Of a stretch of DNA of 64,000 bases, positions 2,855-8,746 are shown piece after piece (position 1 is the stretch's first letter; each line of letters starts with the position of its first letter). The stretch lies in assembly GCF_016907515.1 (NCBI RefSeq), contig NZ_JAFBBY010000001.1, positions 806,001-870,000 on the forward strand, read 5' to 3'. Under the pieces are notes generated by a model that was not told where the DNA came from, ran no database searches, and worked only from the letters and a program-made list of their open reading frames with translations. This stretch comes from Nocardioides nitrophenolicus. Its GTDB lineage: Bacteria; Actinomycetota; Actinomycetes; Propionibacteriales; Nocardioidaceae. The position numbers and the translations under genes were made by a program.

Positions 2855-5446
2855 TCAGCTCCTCCCGACGTAGCGGAACGCGGCCCAGTGGTAGGGGTGC
2901 GGATGCCGTCGCGCCACCCGGCGCCGGGCCCGGCGCAGCGCCACCGCCGGCTCACTGCCCGCCGCCAGCTCGTCGTAGAAGTGCGTCATCAGCTCGAGGG
3001 TCACCTCGTCGTCGACCGCCCACAGCGCCGCGACCACGCCCCGGGCTCCGGCGGCCAGGCAGGCCGGCACCAGCCCGACCTCCTCGGCGGTGTGGTCGGG
3101 CGAGCGCCCGGAGCTGCACGCACTCAGCACCACGACCGCCCCGTCGAGGGGGACGGCCCCCGCGGCGACGTCACCGGCGCGCAGCCAGCCGTCGGCGAGC
3201 CGCAGGCCCGAGCCGAGCGGGTCGTCCGGGCGGAACACGCCGTGGCAGGCGAAGTGCACGACCTCGGCGCCGGCCGAGCGCCCGGCGACGGCGGCGCTCG
3301 TGGCGGCCGGGCCGACCAGCACCTCGGCCGCGGGCAGCACCCGGCGGATCATCGCGGCCTCGTCGGCGATCGACGGCGCGTTCGCGTCGGGTACGGCGAT
3401 CACCAGGGTCCCGAGGGCGGCCGCGGCGGCCGGCTCACCGGCCGGGTCGGCCGGCGCGCCGGGCCGCGCGAGATGGGAGTACCACGGACCGACCTCGTCG
3501 AGCAGTGCGTCGAAGGGCACGCCGTGGAGGTGGCGGTGGCCCACGACCTGGAGCCGGTCGTCGAGGTCCTCGAGCAGGTCCACGACGGGCGCCAGGAGCA
3601 GGTCGAAGAGCCCGTCGAGGGCGGCCGAGCTGGTGTGGCCGGCCGGCACACCACAGCCCGGCGCCATCAGCAGGCACTCCTGCTGCCACGCCCGGACCAG
3701 CCGGCGGCTGCCCTCGGTGGCGCTGGTGAGCACCCGCGCGTCGACGTGGCCGTCGCGGGCCACGAACACCACGATGTCGTCGCCGGCGACGTAGAACTCG
3801 ACGAGCGAGCCGTCGGGCACCGACGGCAGCACCTCCTCGACGGGCTCCCCGGGCCGGACGACCGCGGCGACGGCGACGGCGTCGGCCAGCAGCGACTCCA
3901 GCCGCCGCCCGCGCTCGACCGGTGCCGCCGATCGGGCCGGGTCGGCGACCGGCAGCCGCACCGGGGCCCGCTTGGCGGCCCGGGCCCGGCGCAGCGCCTC
4001 GACCCGGCCGGCGTGGTCGCCGCGCTCGATCAGCAGCAGGATCAGCTCCTCGGCGGCGTCGGTGAGCGACGGGCAGCCGACCCGCCCGCGCGGGCCGAGC
4101 CGCTGCTCCCAGGCCCGGCCGGCGGCGAGCGCTCGACGCAGGGTCTCGACCGCCTCGGCGACCTGGCGGGTGCGGCGCTCGTGGCGGGCTCGGGCGAGCA
4201 GGACGTCGACCTCCAGCTCGGGGCTCCCGGCCTGGGCGGCCCGCTGGTCGGCCTCGTCGAGCAGGACGGTGGCGGCGTCGACCTCGGCGACCCGGGCGGC
4301 GGCGAGGCGGGCGTGGACGGCGACGGCCGGCGGCGTGTCGGCGTCCTCGGCGGCCAGCACCCGGTCGGCCGCCGCGCGGGCGCCGTCGAGGTCGCCGAGC
4401 GCCCGGGCCACCTCGGCCCGGAGCAGCCAGGTGCGCAGCCGCATCTGCCGGCTGCCGCACTCGCCGAAGAGGCGGTCCGCGACCTCCAGCTCGGCGGCAG
4501 CGGCCCGCCGACGTCCCCACGCCAGGGAGGCCCGGGCGCTCGCGAGGGCGGCGCGAGCGGAGTGCTCGACAGCACCGATCCGGACGAAGACCTCCTCGGC
4601 GGCACAGGCCTCGGCATGCGCCTCGGCGGCACAGCCGGCACGCAGCAGGGCGCCCGAGCGGACGAGGGCGTGGAGCGCGACGTGCCACTGGGTGTGCGGG
4701 ACGTCCGGGGCGACGCAGTCGAGGACGTCGAGGGCACGGGCGACCTGACCGGTGGCGGAGTACGCCTCCGCCACGCGGGTCGCGACGGCGGCGGCACGGT
4801 CGGGCTGGCCGGCGGCGGCGTAGGCCCGCCGGGACCGGTCGAGCTCGAGGAGCGCGCTGTGGGTGAGCCCCGCGTCGAGCGCGGCGAGTCCACGGCGGTG
4901 CTGCAGGCGCGCGATGCTGTCGACGTCTCCGAGCGCGGCGAACAGGTTCTCCGCACCGTCGTACTGGCGCAGCGCGGCGCCCAGCTCGCCCCGGCCCGCG
5001 CGCGCGTCGGCGAGCTGGCGCTGCACGAGCGCGCCGAGCCGCGGCACCCGGAGGTCGTGACGGGCGAGCGCGCGGAGCTCGGCCTGGAGCCGCAGCAGGC
5101 CCGCCTCGGCGGCCGCGAACTCGCCGACCAGGAGCTGCACCTCGAGTCCGCCGGCCGCCGCGCGGACGGCCTCGGCCGGCTCGCCCGCGGCGAGCCAGTG
5201 CCGCCGGGCGGTGCGGTAGGCGCTGGCCGCGGCGCCGAGCTCGCCCGACGCGACGGCGAGGTCTCCGCGCAGCCGGTGCAGCCAGGCGACCCGGGCGACG
5301 TCGCGCTGACCGGCCAGGCCCGACTCGGCCCGGTCGAGCAGCTCGGCGCACCGCTCGGTGTCGCGATGGAGCCAGTGCTGGGCCTCGTCGATGAGGTCGT
5401 CGATGTCACCCCCGGCACCGGCCGGCAGGCAGTCCCCGAGACTCAT
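2855..5446 (-). CDS. TPR-CHAT domain protease
   Basis: The protein has 863 residues. Residues about 1-480 are alanine/leucine-rich helical repeats of TPR type. The C-terminal 300 or so residues are a CHAT domain, a caspase-like cysteine peptidase fold. The catalytic pair is visible: His735 in VVHFACHGVF and Cys777 in VVVLSACSSG, followed by the typical GLVPACLAAGARGVVAALW block and a YHWAAFRYVG end. There is no signal peptide, so it should act in the cytoplasm, with the TPR region sensing a partner or peptide. It is the last gene of an operon, four bases after an unknown protein that overlaps a sigma factor gene. The substrate is unknown; the unknown neighbour is one candidate. Confidence 0.92.
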   Translation of the reverse strand: MSLGDCLPAGAGGDIDDLIDEAQHWLHRDTERCAELLDRAESGLAGQRDVARVAWLHRLRGDLAVASGELGAAASAYRTARRHWLAAGEPAEAVRAAAGGLEVQLLVGEFAAAEAGLLRLQAELRALARHDLRVPRLGALVQRQLADARAGRGELGAALRQYDGAENLFAALGDVDSIARLQHRRGLAALDAGLTHSALLELDRSRRAYAAAGQPDRAAAVATRVAEAYSATGQVARALDVLDCVAPDVPHTQWHVALHALVRSGALLRAGCAAEAHAEACAAEEVFVRIGAVEHSARAALASARASLAWGRRRAAAAELEVADRLFGECGSRQMRLRTWLLRAEVARALGDLDGARAAADRVLAAEDADTPPAVAVHARLAAARVAEVDAATVLLDEADQRAAQAGSPELEVDVLLARARHERRTRQVAEAVETLRRALAAGRAWEQRLGPRGRVGCPSLTDAAEELILLLIERGDHAGRVEALRRARAAKRAPVRLPVADPARSAAPVERGRRLESLLADAVAVAAVVRPGEPVEEVLPSVPDGSLVEFYVAGDDIVVFVARDGHVDARVLTSATEGSRRLVRAWQQECLLMAPGCGVPAGHTSSAALDGLFDLLLAPVVDLLEDLDDRLQVVGHRHLHGVPFDALLDEVGPWYSHLARPGAPADPAGEPAAAAALGTLVIAVPDANAPSIADEAAMIRRVLPAAEVLVGPAATSAAVAGRSAGAEVVHFACHGVFRPDDPLGSGLRLADGWLRAGDVAAGAVPLDGAVVVLSACSSGRSPDHTAEEVGLVPACLAAGARGVVAALWAVDDEVTLELMTHFYDELAAGSEPAVALRRARRRVARRHPHPYHWAAFRYVGRS

Positions 5447-5450
5447 GACC

Positions 5451-6050
5451 TCAGGAGCGGAGGTCGAGCAGGGCCCGGACCCGCGTCGGTCCGGAGGTCA
5501 GCCACAGCTCGTCGACGCCGACGGGCACCCCGCGCGCGTCGAACCGGCCGTCGGGGGTGGACCGCACCGCTCGGCGCAGGTCGCCACGCTCGAGGAAGGC
5601 GAGATCGAGGCCGCCGACGCCCGACGGCAGCATGACCAGCCCCTGGACGTCGACCTCGCCGACGCCCGAGGCGGTCGCGTCGAGCACGAAGCGCCCGAGC
5701 TCGCTGTCGAAGGCGAGATGGACGCCGCCGTCGCCGAGCGAGCGGACACCCGCCACCCCGACCTGGGAGCGGGTGTCGTGGAGCAGGGCGGCGTCGGACC
5801 AGTCCCGGCCCTGCCGCGGCCGGTGCAGCTGGTCGAAGACCCCGCGCAGCCGGAGGCCGAGCTCGGGCGGACGCTGCTGCAGGGGCATGGAGGCGGCACC
5901 GGAGACGAACTCGAGGATCCACTCGACGCTCTCGAGGGTCGCGGGGTCGCCCACGGCGACGTACGACGCGACGTCCTCGGCCGCCTCGGTGGCGAGTCGG
6001 CCGTCGAGCCAGTCGACGAGCTCGGTGAAGCTCGGCCGCGCGGTGCTCAC
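5451..6050 (-). CDS. unknown protein between sigma factor and CHAT protease
   Basis: This 199-residue protein is not recognised. Its N-terminal 50 residues (FTELVDWLDGRL..EAAEDVASYV) look like the start of an anti-sigma factor, but the zinc-binding HxxxCxxC motif is absent. The rest is beta-rich, with a segment RFVLDATASGVGEVDVQG and no membrane helix. It overlaps the sigma factor gene by four bases (ATGA) and precedes the CHAT gene by four bases, so all three are translated together. The position suggests a regulator of the sigma factor, or a substrate or inhibitor of the CHAT protease. Both are inferences. Confidence 0.8.
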   Translation of the reverse strand: MSTARPSFTELVDWLDGRLATEAAEDVASYVAVGDPATLESVEWILEFVSGAASMPLQQRPPELGLRLRGVFDQLHRPRQGRDWSDAALLHDTRSQVGVAGVRSLGDGGVHLAFDSELGRFVLDATASGVGEVDVQGLVMLPSGVGGLDLAFLERGDLRRAVRSTPDGRFDARGVPVGVDELWLTSGPTRVRALLDLRS

Positions 6051-6655
6051 GCCTCCTCCCCCATGATCACCCGCAGCTTGTCGAGGCAGCGGCCGCGGAG
6101 CGGGCCGATCCCTCCGATCGACCGCCCGAAGCGCTCGGCGATCTCGGCGTAGCTGGGGGTCTCCGGCTCGAAGTAGAGCGCGAGCAGCAGGTCGCGGCAG
6201 GTGCCGCCGAGGGTGGAGAGGGCGTCGTGGAGCGCGGTGGTGGTGGCCCAGTCGGCGAACGGGTCGCTGGACTCCTCGGGCGTGTTGTCGAGCGAGGTCG
6301 TGCGCCGGCTCAGGTTGCGGGAGCGCCAGGCCTGCCGGCGCGCGACCGTCATCAGCCAGGAGGCGAGCTTCTCGTCGTCGCGCAGCCGGTCGAGCGCGTC
6401 GATGAGGGCCACGAAGGTGGCCTGGGTGACGTCAGCGGCGTCCTCGGCGCTGAGACCGTTGCGCAGGGCGACGGTGTAGACCAGCCGCTCGTAGCGGCTG
6501 ACCAGCTGGTTCCAGGCATCCGAGTCGCGGCGGCGGCAGCGGATCAGCAGGTCGGAGTCGGTGACCATCTCGCTGTGGCGAGGTTGCGGTCGACCGGTAC
6601 GGCCGGTGGGCCGTAGCTCGGTGACGCGAGCTGAGTGCTCGCTCAATGACGTCAT
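6047..6655 (-). CDS. ECF-like sigma-70 family factor
   Basis: The protein carries sigma region 2 (DAWNQLVSRYERLVYTVA..GLSAEDAADVTQATFVAL, then ASWLMTVARRQAW) and region 4 (LGGTCRDLLLALYFEPETPSYAEIAERFGRS) and lacks regions 1 and 3, so it is of the extracytoplasmic-function type. ATG at 6655 gives 202 residues and a basic N-terminal tail; ATG at 6568 would give a compact 173-residue factor that starts right at region 2. The frame is also open upstream to 6799, but that part does not look like sigma factor. It is the first gene of the operon with the unknown protein and the CHAT protease. An inverted repeat at 6679-6700 lies just upstream. Confidence 0.88.
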   Translation of the reverse strand: MTSLSEHSARVTELRPTGRTGRPQPRHSEMVTDSDLLIRCRRRDSDAWNQLVSRYERLVYTVALRNGLSAEDAADVTQATFVALIDALDRLRDDEKLASWLMTVARRQAWRSRNLSRRTTSLDNTPEESSDPFADWATTTALHDALSTLGGTCRDLLLALYFEPETPSYAEIAERFGRSIGGIGPLRGRCLDKLRVIMGEEA

Positions 6656-7075: not shown

Positions 7076-7090
7076 GGTCAAGGCTTGACC
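7076..7090. promoter_or_regulatory. perfect palindromic operator of the small-peptide gene
   Basis: GGTCAAG-G-CTTGACC is a perfect inverted repeat with 7-bp arms and one central base. Its right arm is also the best -35 candidate (TTGACC, 7085-7090) for the small-peptide gene, so a protein bound here would block or control RNA polymerase directly. The convergent XRE-TPR regulator is the obvious candidate ligand, but this is inference. Confidence 0.55.
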
Positions 7091-7113
7091 CGGAAACATT
7101 CCCCTACTTACCA
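7085..7113 (+). promoter_or_regulatory. candidate promoter of the small-peptide gene
   Basis: A -35 box TTGACC at 7085-7090 is followed after 17 bases by TTACCA at 7108-7113, a weak -10. TACTTA at 7105-7110 is an alternative -10 with a short 14-base spacing. The surrounding 7091-7135 is clearly more AT-rich than the rest of the region, as expected for a promoter. The transcript would have a leader of about 70-75 bases. Confidence 0.4.
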
Positions 7114-7192
7114 AGATGTGACAACCTCATTGGCAACCGGGTGAGCCGGCGTCCCGAGCGCTCGGCCACCGCCCCCCAGAAGGAGAACCCCG

Positions 7193-7318
7193 ATGAAGAC
7201 TCGCAAGATCCTCGCCGCCACCGCCGCCGCTCTCGCCGCCACCCTGGCCGCCACCCTGGGCGCCCCGTCGACCGGCGCGTCGGTCGTGCTCGCCGACCGC
7301 CCGGCCGGCTGCTGCTGA
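7193..7318 (+). CDS. 41-residue secreted peptide ending Cys-Cys
   Basis: A strong ribosome binding site (AAGGAGAA, 7180-7187) stands seven bases before ATG at 7193, and the frame runs 41 codons to TGA at 7316-7318. The product has a positively charged start MKTRKI, an Ala/Leu-rich hydrophobic stretch (residues 6-24) and a small-residue region PSTGAS that could be a signal-peptidase site. That would leave a mature tail of about 11 residues, VVLADRPAGCC. Only ten bases separate its stop from the stop of a convergent XRE-TPR regulator. Size, export signal and partner fit the precursor of a signalling peptide of the RRNPP type; a small toxin or a thiol peptide are alternatives. It is too short for most automated gene callers. 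Confidence 0.7.
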   Translation: MKTRKILAATAAALAATLAATLGAPSTGASVVLADRPAGCC

Positions 7319-7328
7319 TCCAGCAGAT

Positions 7329-8705
7329 CTAGGAGACCCGGACGGGCCGCTGGGCCCGGCCCGCACGCGCGCGCAGCCGCAGCCCGCTGGCACTCGCCGC
7401 CGACTTGATGGCGGCATGGGCGGCGGCGACCTCGCCGAGATACTCGAAGAGGTCCGCCAGCTCGCACCACGCCTGGGCCACCCAGCGGTCCGCCTCGGTC
7501 CGCCGGGACAGGAGCTCGGCCGCCTCGCGGCAGGCCTCGACGGCCTCGTCGTCGCGGCCGAGCTCGGCCAGCGCCTCGGCCTGTGCCATCGCGGCCTCGG
7601 CCGCCCCGAGGCTGGCCTCCTTCGGGGTGCCGGCCCGGGCGGCGGTGGCGACGTCCAGCGCCTCGTCGGCCTGTCCGTCCATCACCAGGGCCCGCGCCAG
7701 GATGGTCTGGGCGTGGGCGACCTGGGCGGTGGACCCGCTGGAGGACTGCAGCTCGTCGGCCGCCTTGGTGACGTGCTTGATCGCCGTCTCCACGTCGGGC
7801 GACTCGGACCCGAGGTGCAGCCGGCCGAGCTCGAGACGCAGGTAGGCGAGGTTGCGGGCGTCCTGGCCCTCGCCGAGCAGCGCGAGCGCCCGGGTGGCCA
7901 GGGTCAGCGCGGACTGCGTCTCGCCGCGCTCGGAGTAGGCGATGCTCGCGTTCCAGTACGCCGCGCTCCGGGCCACCGGCGAGGCCATCTCCTCGGCGAG
8001 CGCGATCGCGTCGGTGCAGATCCGGGTCGCCCGGCTGAGGTCACCGCGCTCGATGTGGGCGAGCGCGACCGTCATGGCCAGCTGCACCGCCTCGTCGGTG
8101 CGCTCCAGCCCGCTGGCCACGATCTCGGGCTGGATCCGCTCGCCGACCTCGATGGCGAGGGCGAGGTCGCCGGCCTCCCGGTAGCAGCGGCTCAGCGCGA
8201 TGCCGCACTTGATGGCCGCGACCCCGCCGACGTCGGCGAGCAGGGACTCGAGCTCGCGGATCGCGTCGTCGAGCCGCCCCGTCACCTCCAGCGAGCGGGC
8301 CACGACGAACCTGCCCCGGACGGTGAGGTCGGTGACCGACACCCCCTCCGCGCGCGCGAGCGCGGCGCGGGCCTGGCGCTCGGCGTCGACGGCCTCGCCG
8401 TTCTCGAGCGCGAGCTCGGCGTAGCTGAGCCCCAGCCGGATCTCGTCGACCTCGGCCTCGGACGCACCGGCGACCAGCTCGGCGACGTCGACGCCGAGCC
8501 GCTCGCTGATCACCGTCAGCGCCGCGAGGGTCGGGCGCCGGGCGCCGGACTCGATCCGGGAGACGTAGCCCACGGAGTACGCCTCGCCGACGAGGTCGGC
8601 CTGGTTGAGGCCCCGGGCCACCCGAGCGGCACGCACGCGCGAACCGAGAACGGCCGGATCGACCGTCCCCAGCAGCTGCGCCCAACGTGCGTCGATGTGA
8701 CTCAT
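7329..8705 (-). CDS. XRE-TPR transcriptional regulator (RRNPP-like)
   Basis: From ATG at 8705 the protein has 458 residues. Residues about 20-78 are an XRE helix-turn-helix (LGSRVRAARVARGLNQADL, YVSRIESGARRPTLAAL). The rest, about 90-445, is a chain of alpha-helical TPR-like repeats. This layout is that of peptide-sensing regulators such as PlcR, Rgg and PrgX. The frame is open upstream to 8861, but the extra 52 residues are basic and proline-rich and look untranslated. The start is supported by a -10 box TAGGAT only eight bases ahead, which would make the mRNA leaderless. Its stop lies ten bases from the stop of the small secreted peptide gene, its likely ligand partner by position. Confidence 0.88.
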   Translation of the reverse strand: MSHIDARWAQLLGTVDPAVLGSRVRAARVARGLNQADLVGEAYSVGYVSRIESGARRPTLAALTVISERLGVDVAELVAGASEAEVDEIRLGLSYAELALENGEAVDAERQARAALARAEGVSVTDLTVRGRFVVARSLEVTGRLDDAIRELESLLADVGGVAAIKCGIALSRCYREAGDLALAIEVGERIQPEIVASGLERTDEAVQLAMTVALAHIERGDLSRATRICTDAIALAEEMASPVARSAAYWNASIAYSERGETQSALTLATRALALLGEGQDARNLAYLRLELGRLHLGSESPDVETAIKHVTKAADELQSSSGSTAQVAHAQTILARALVMDGQADEALDVATAARAGTPKEASLGAAEAAMAQAEALAELGRDDEAVEACREAAELLSRRTEADRWVAQAWCELADLFEYLGEVAAAHAAIKSAASASGLRLRARAGRAQRPVRVS

Positions 8706-8713
8706 CGGGAGAA

Positions 8714-8746
8714 ATCCTAGGCGAACTTCCTCATGACGAGAGTCAA
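8714..8746 (-). promoter_or_regulatory. leaderless promoter of the XRE-TPR regulator
   Basis: On the minus strand TTGACT (8746-8741) and TAGGAT (8719-8714) form a -35/-10 pair with a long 21-base spacing. TAGGAT ends eight bases before the ATG at 8705, placing the transcription start at or next to the start codon. The -10 alone is the stronger part of the argument. Confidence 0.45.

Follow-up and report, generated by a model that had tools for sequence, protein, structure and literature searches.

The 64,000-nucleotide stretch of the Nocardioides nitrophenolicus genome studied here (hereafter the window) carries on its plus strand a gene for a micro-peptide precursor (7193-7318), which lies tail to tail with a gene for an XRE regulator containing tetratricopeptide repeats (TPRs) on the minus strand (7329-8705). 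The precursor has 41 amino acids (aa) counted from an ATG start (MKTRKILAATAAALAATLAATLGAPSTGASVVLADRPAGCC), and a Shine-Dalgarno sequence, AAGGAG, is found 7 bases 5' of this start (7180-7185, plus strand). Its last two residues, Cys40-Cys41, are encoded at 7310-7315 (plus strand) and are directly followed by the TGA stop codon. Only 10 bases separate this stop from the end of the regulator open reading frame (ORF) at 7329. A short ORF with a strong ribosome binding site and a regulator ten bases away had both been described in an original prediction made from the sequence alone, and both are indeed present. Purine-rich sites like AAGGAG also precede the peptide genes of many relatives. Upstream of the peptide gene, a conserved block, CATTCC...TTACCAAGATGTGACAACCTCATTGGCAA (7097-7136, plus strand), probably constitutes its operator and promoter, as judged by conservation, and a perfect palindrome, GGTCAAG-G-CTTGACC, occupies 7076-7090, with no strand assigned.

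The regulator, of 458 aa from an ATG at 8705, is the proposed cytoplasmic receptor of the peptide. It consists of a helix-turn-helix (HTH) DNA-binding domain (residues ~20-78, positions 8472-8648, minus strand) and a TPR superhelix (residues ~82-443, positions 7377-8462, minus strand), the latter being the proposed peptide-binding part. Two Pfam families match above their cut-offs, HTH_3 at residues 24-77 and TPR_12 (46.4 bits, cut-off 30.1). The micro-peptide itself has no family match in Pfam or NCBIfam, and two of its relatives likewise have none in NCBIfam.

The micro-peptide and the XRE-TPR regulator are confirmed as a conserved pair. A search for the regulator covered 58 relatives first and 215 genus genomes next; of the latter, 100 gave a match at an E value of 1e-20 or better. 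In the stretches fetched from the genus, 129 regulator ORFs were located; duplicates (L001-L012) and matches to the HTH only (L013-L030) were left out before counting, and the matches G161, G196 and G212 were not included. A peptide was accepted under a fixed rule: 25-75 aa, a hydrophobic stretch, Cys-Cys (CC) within the last five residues, convergent orientation and a distance of at most 450 bp from the regulator. By this rule, a convergent CC signal-peptide ORF is found beside 88 of the 113 full-length genus regulators with enough flank. The same rule gave no match at the control positions, whether downstream on the same strand (0/113), upstream on the same strand (0/114) or farther off (0/112 and 0/112), and 4 matches in 2260 Markov shuffles. 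The divergent upstream position gave 8 matches in 114; six of these are apparently real peptides in another arrangement (L081, L104, L134, L139, L140, L143) and two are unconvincing (L094, L138). Moreover, four extra convergent peptides were seen that overlap the end of the regulator or had at first been mis-picked (L080, L095, L097, L121). A CC peptide accompanies 66 of the 76 full-length genus regulators that are at least 40% identical to the regulator of the window, 16 of the 23 that are 36-40% identical and 6 of the 15 with lower identity.

Other samples agree with this picture. A wider rule detected a CC peptide at 54 of 63 named loci, which come mostly from Nocardioides, with Pimelobacter, Marmoricola and a few others, and partly overlap the genus genomes. 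At loci from other genera of the family, a CC peptide is present in 12 of 18 cases, one of them 1.6 kb away. In the converse test, a profile of 56 peptides was run over the same 215 genus genomes, and 87 of the 90 peptide matches at an E value of 2e-6 or better lie within 1 kb of a regulator. Of the three without a listed regulator nearby, two are close to the end of a contig and the third is a partial match inside a frame of 275 aa. Many weaker matches span the signal-peptide part only, and the peptide of the window scores 4.9e-5 in this profile, which places it outside the 90. Tandem arrays of four regulator paralogues exist at L141 and L146, each with one CC peptide found, at one end.

The peptide frame also bears the mark of selection on the protein. 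Over 86 related pairs, which are not independent of each other, the ratio of non-synonymous to synonymous substitution rates (dN/dS) is 0.44 and the corresponding ratio of proportions of differences (pN/pS) is 0.48, whereas the other two frames of the same pairs give pN/pS values of 1.17 and 1.94. Between the window peptide and its relative in L046, 10 differences are synonymous and 2 are non-synonymous. Thus, the frame is under purifying selection, which implies that it is translated. Conservation of the peptide is far beyond chance, and the earlier expectations that the micro-peptide would be kept beside regulator homologues and that 7193-7318 would be translated have therefore held, the first by count within the genus and more beyond it, the second as implied by the substitution pattern.

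The window peptide comprises a basic start (KTRK), a hydrophobic stretch, a small-residue region resembling a cleavage site, a variable tail and the terminal CC. The Sec-export features, namely the basic start and the hydrophobic stretch, were judged from composition, and the hydrophobic stretch belonged to the search filter. Genus peptides have 36-56 aa (89 peptides; sought at 25-75 aa). Besides the start residue, the CC is the sole fixed feature, being invariant in 56 of 56 aligned peptides, partly by construction because the aligned rows were chosen with a CC filter. The residue before it is Trp in 54 of the 89 genus peptides and Gly in 14, the window peptide among the latter.

The comparison of leaders and tails kept pairs whose leaders are at least 80% alike; these pairs are not independent, and the database peptides P0041 and P0048 were shortened to an inner start for it. 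Over the seven residues before the CC, peptides of different loci are on average 55% identical (361 pairs); for tandem copies within one locus, whose leaders are about equally similar, the figure is 93% (16 pairs, 10 loci). Of 18 within-locus pairs, 16 passed the threshold; the two omitted, both from L078, agree by eye in 5 and 6 of the 7 tail residues. Two or three tandem peptide genes are present at 10 of the 93 regulators that have a peptide. A constant leader, a variable code and a matching code among copies of one locus would be expected of a signal fitted to its local receptor.

Tails of other types were also seen. At L295 (2131-2358, regulator on the plus strand), the precursor, divergent from a distant relative of the regulator, contains the tail GNWPDPM in two copies; multi-copy pheromone precursors are built in the same manner. 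An ORF with a signal peptide in the divergent position at L303 (2282-2431) ends in FGWNHPG and not in CC. The receptor family may thus have other tail types besides CC. Several of the CC tails in family f23 (for example at L278, L281 and L285) read WPGMCC.

A motif model of the upstream regions consists of TTGcCA-type half-sites with a spacing of ~10-13 bp, in most cases 40-125 bases ahead of the start. It reaches 14 bits or more in 52 of 74 upstream regions, the same 74 that served for training, and some of the misses are second tandem copies. In an alignment of 10 clade members, the block 7097-7136 is conserved. With up to 3 mismatches allowed, its 21-base core (7108-7128) has a single occurrence in each of 8 of the 10 clade genomes; in the other two, a more diverged version stands at the same place. 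The 19-base core of another clade occurs once per genome in 12 of 12 chosen genomes. All 20 core sites, from 20 of the 22 genomes, are situated just upstream of the peptide gene, the 22 having been chosen because their peptide promoters carry the motif. A reversed control pattern matched in none of the 10 genomes and in 3 of the 12. No site with 3 or fewer mismatches was found outside the peptide promoter in the 22 genomes, in a search that did not extend to degenerate sites. Since the core is present once per genome and at the peptide promoter, the pair looks autoregulated as far as these sequences indicate, and a wider regulon would have to use weaker or different sites.

The palindrome had been put forward earlier as the operator. 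It lies exactly at 7076-7090, as predicted, but it is not conserved, and a different block nearer to the gene is. The window contains 22 perfect palindromes of this 7-1-7 form, a chance-level number, and the right arm alone was seen in two of nine clade relatives. The palindrome is therefore probably fortuitous and was rejected as operator.

An AlphaFold2 model predicts a TPR superhelix for the regulator, with a mean pLDDT of 94.3. The model resembles Rap, NprR and PlcR, but by fold also unrelated TPR proteins. The PlcR profile matches at 4.5e-15 over the HTH and part of the TPRs, both of which are common domains. In 12 of 12 CC-linked regulators compared across families, a hand-picked set, residues R173, R220, D222, W251 and W413 are kept; W251 is also kept in some relatives for which no CC peptide was found (e.g. 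L240 and L309). Covariation was computed on 76 of 85 peptide-regulator pairs, and tail residue -3 pairs most strongly with regulator residues 215, 218 and 268 in the TPR part, a signal confounded by shared ancestry.

We favour the interpretation that the pair is a module for peptide signalling, self-contained and autoregulated, with a mode of action like that of the Firmicutes RRNPP systems, and we hold it with reasonable, though not high, confidence. Pairing, conservation, protein-level constraint and the promoter block are observed and the receptor fold is predicted. The precursor would be exported via Sec, and a C-terminal piece of ~7-12 residues ending in CC would be released. This piece could be re-imported through an oligopeptide permease, 14 SBP_bac_5 binding proteins being encoded in the genome, and then be bound by the TPR superhelix of the adjacent regulator, which would in turn alter transcription, foremost of the peptide gene itself, via the block 7097-7136. 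The fixed CC end may act as a family-wide anchor and the variable residues before it as a strain or clade code. Export, cleavage, uptake, ligand binding, the direction of regulation and further targets are the parts that we infer, and with re-import and regulator-peptide binding among them we do not file the module as a proven RRNPP member. One strong covariation, that of regulator residue 59 with tail residue -6, falls in the HTH and does not suit a simple contact.

A different possibility is that the peptide itself is a secreted effector, antimicrobial or metal- or thiol-active, and that the regulator is a dedicated switch sensing something else. Two neighbouring cysteines could coordinate a metal or become disulfide-bonded, tandem copies would raise the dose, and a promoter motif restricted to the peptide gene in 20 of 22 genomes suits such a switch. 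However, tails that differ between loci yet are alike among tandem copies of one locus suit a match to a receptor. Moreover, no neighbour cluster, whether for immunity, export or another function, recurs in more than 25 of the 87 loci. The comparison was made with unannotated clusters and, at many loci, with just 1.5-2 kb of flank; it yielded no conserved target gene near the loci, the commonest other neighbour cluster being that found in 25 of 87, mostly close relatives. We regard the effector explanation as unlikely.

Less probable still, by about half, is that the peptide reports on the envelope or on redox conditions, its cysteines being oxidised outside so that the returned peptide conveys redox, metal or secretion state and not cell density. 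Such a reporter would fit a Cys pair that alone, apart from the start residue, is fixed in rows filtered for CC, and would fit single-site feedback, but it leaves the variable residues before the CC unexplained, and beside some relatives of the regulator the peptide in the corresponding position has a tail other than CC (L295, L303). The organisation into a leader and a short variable core, together with one Streptomyces plasmid copy near a SARP-like regulator and a P450, recalls the precursor of a modified natural product similar to the ribosomally synthesised and post-translationally modified peptides, under control of the regulator. We consider this very improbable, as the leader resembles a Sec signal and none of the unannotated neighbour clusters is kept widely enough to be a candidate modification enzyme. 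Finally, open frames abound in high-GC genomes, but a chance ORF is refuted at the level of conservation by the pairing controls, the in-frame pN/pS of 0.48 against 1.17 and 1.94 and the 87 of 90 peptide matches near regulators, and its probability is negligible.

The peptide-regulator pair is also found beyond the family. Wider regulator searches used an alignment of 70 regulators, and their counts include the genus itself: at an E value of 1e-30, 119 of the 341 family genomes matched, representing 8 of the 26 genera; at 1e-40, 85 of the 394 class genomes did, representing 34 of the 137 genera. A CC signal-peptide ORF lies within ~500 bp at 18 of 22 class loci outside the family, against none in 660 shuffles and none in 18 far flanks. 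These 22 loci (L268-L289) are the best-scoring fetched ones, and 11 of the 18 positives come from one family (f23 11/12, f17 4/4, f20 1/4, f12 1/1, f24 1/1). A further 20 hand-picked class loci (L290-L309), including two repeats (L307 has the regulator of L275 and L309 that of L273), gave a CC peptide at 4, with 1 match in 600 shuffles. In one genus, regulators related to a Streptomyces plasmid copy have a CC peptide in 10 of 16 cases (0 of 480 shuffles); the 16 come from 14 of 246 sampled genomes, and the genus is presumed to be Streptomyces because one genome carries an 88% identical copy of the Streptomyces goshikiensis plasmid regulator.

Outside the family the gene order is mostly divergent and sometimes convergent. 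Plasmids of S. goshikiensis and Streptomyces sp. Mg1 have both genes on the same strand, and the product of the downstream gene there, a hypothetical protein, has DIPLCC as its last residues. Among database entries related to the non-Nocardioides peptides, 13 of 13 end in CC; the named entries, which include Jiangella, Haloactinopolyspora and Candidatus Nanopelagicaceae, are annotated as hypothetical proteins. The CC ends of 54/54 and 13/13 profile matches arise partly by construction, CC being fixed in the profiles. Plasmids gave matches in 19 records, 15 of them from Streptomyces. On the Streptomyces sp. Mg1 plasmid (L334:14941-21677), the regulator, the CC peptide WP_008741297 and a second small protein adjoin a P450 and a regulator of the BTAD (SARP-like) type, a tentative sign that specialised metabolism may be under their control. 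Viral contigs gave one partial match only. An unverified 11.9 kb 'Bacteriophage sp.' record, MT836207.1 (L314), has a 49% identical regulator fragment at its end and may be bacterial DNA rather than phage.

Around the pair in the window, three minus-strand genes to the left of the peptide form an operon-like set (2855-6571); their products are an ECF-type sigma factor, a protein of 199 aa that matches nothing in Pfam, and a protein with a CHAT domain. The sigma factor cluster recurs in 7 of the loci compared. A Ppx/GppA phosphatase gene is situated on the far side of the regulator.

The pair resembles the RRNPP systems (Rap, Rgg, NprR, PlcR, PrgX), and especially NprR-NprX and PlcR-PapR, in its small precursor with a basic start, hydrophobic stretch and variable C-terminal part, in the adjacency of the genes, in an HTH and TPR receptor of 250-500 aa and in the PlcR profile match. 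It differs in belonging to Actinomycetes and not Firmicutes, in the fixed Cys-Cys C-terminus of most members seen, in its convergent or divergent gene order and in a promoter motif found only at the peptide gene. To our knowledge, known RRNPP peptides have no Cys-Cys end. Like the pair, the Arbitrium system (AimR-AimP) has a TPR receptor with a DNA-binding part, an adjacent peptide and few target sites; unlike it, the pair shows little phage linkage. The NsdA family of TPR regulators, for which we know of no partner peptide, has a weak profile likeness to the regulator (NCBIfam NF053720, 35.3 bits, best over residues 323-453), far below the curated cut-off of 75 bits. Gamma-butyrolactones are enzyme-made small molecules with a different type of receptor, unlike the pair. 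Their systems in Streptomyces are comparable as signalling in Actinobacteria, the subject of a review of the phylum (PMC4748050).

A large RRNPP survey, which covered Firmicutes and viruses, gives five criteria: a propeptide of 10-100 aa, Sec secretion (SignalP), a receptor of 250-500 aa, TPRs and genes -60 to 400 bp apart (PMC10075063). Four of these agree with the values in the window (41 aa, 458 aa, TPRs present, 10 bp); the RRNPP-like character that had been predicted is partly supported by these, and the Sec criterion was judged on composition alone. That survey places peptide signalling via intracellular TPR receptors in Firmicutes and their mobile elements and says that Actinobacteria typically signal with small molecules (PMC10075063). 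The phylum review instead names cyclic or modified peptides and gamma-butyrolactones as actinobacterial signals, with quorum sensing reported in 25 of 342 genera, nine with experiments (PMC4748050). No actinobacterial RRNPP-type pair appeared in the titles and abstract starts of open PubMed Central papers, a search that left subscription papers and preprints outside.

The pair looks like an undescribed cell-to-cell peptide signalling system across several actinobacterial families. The genomes in which the pair was seen number well above 100 and range from Nanopelagicaceae-like bacteria with small genomes to Streptomyces. A tentative extension, to which we give slightly less than an even chance, is that it represents a peptide language of the whole class Actinomycetes, in which secreted CC-ended peptides would carry a clade-specific code to a dedicated TPR receptor, the CC would serve as recognition anchor or redox gate, and at least one Streptomyces plasmid copy, beside the SARP-like regulator, may time specialised metabolism. 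A simple rule (a signal peptide, a short tail, CC-stop and an adjoining XRE-TPR gene) makes the question of signalling testable in many culturable species, and, if the signalling interpretation is true, synthetic peptides would be possible switches of gene expression in these bacteria.
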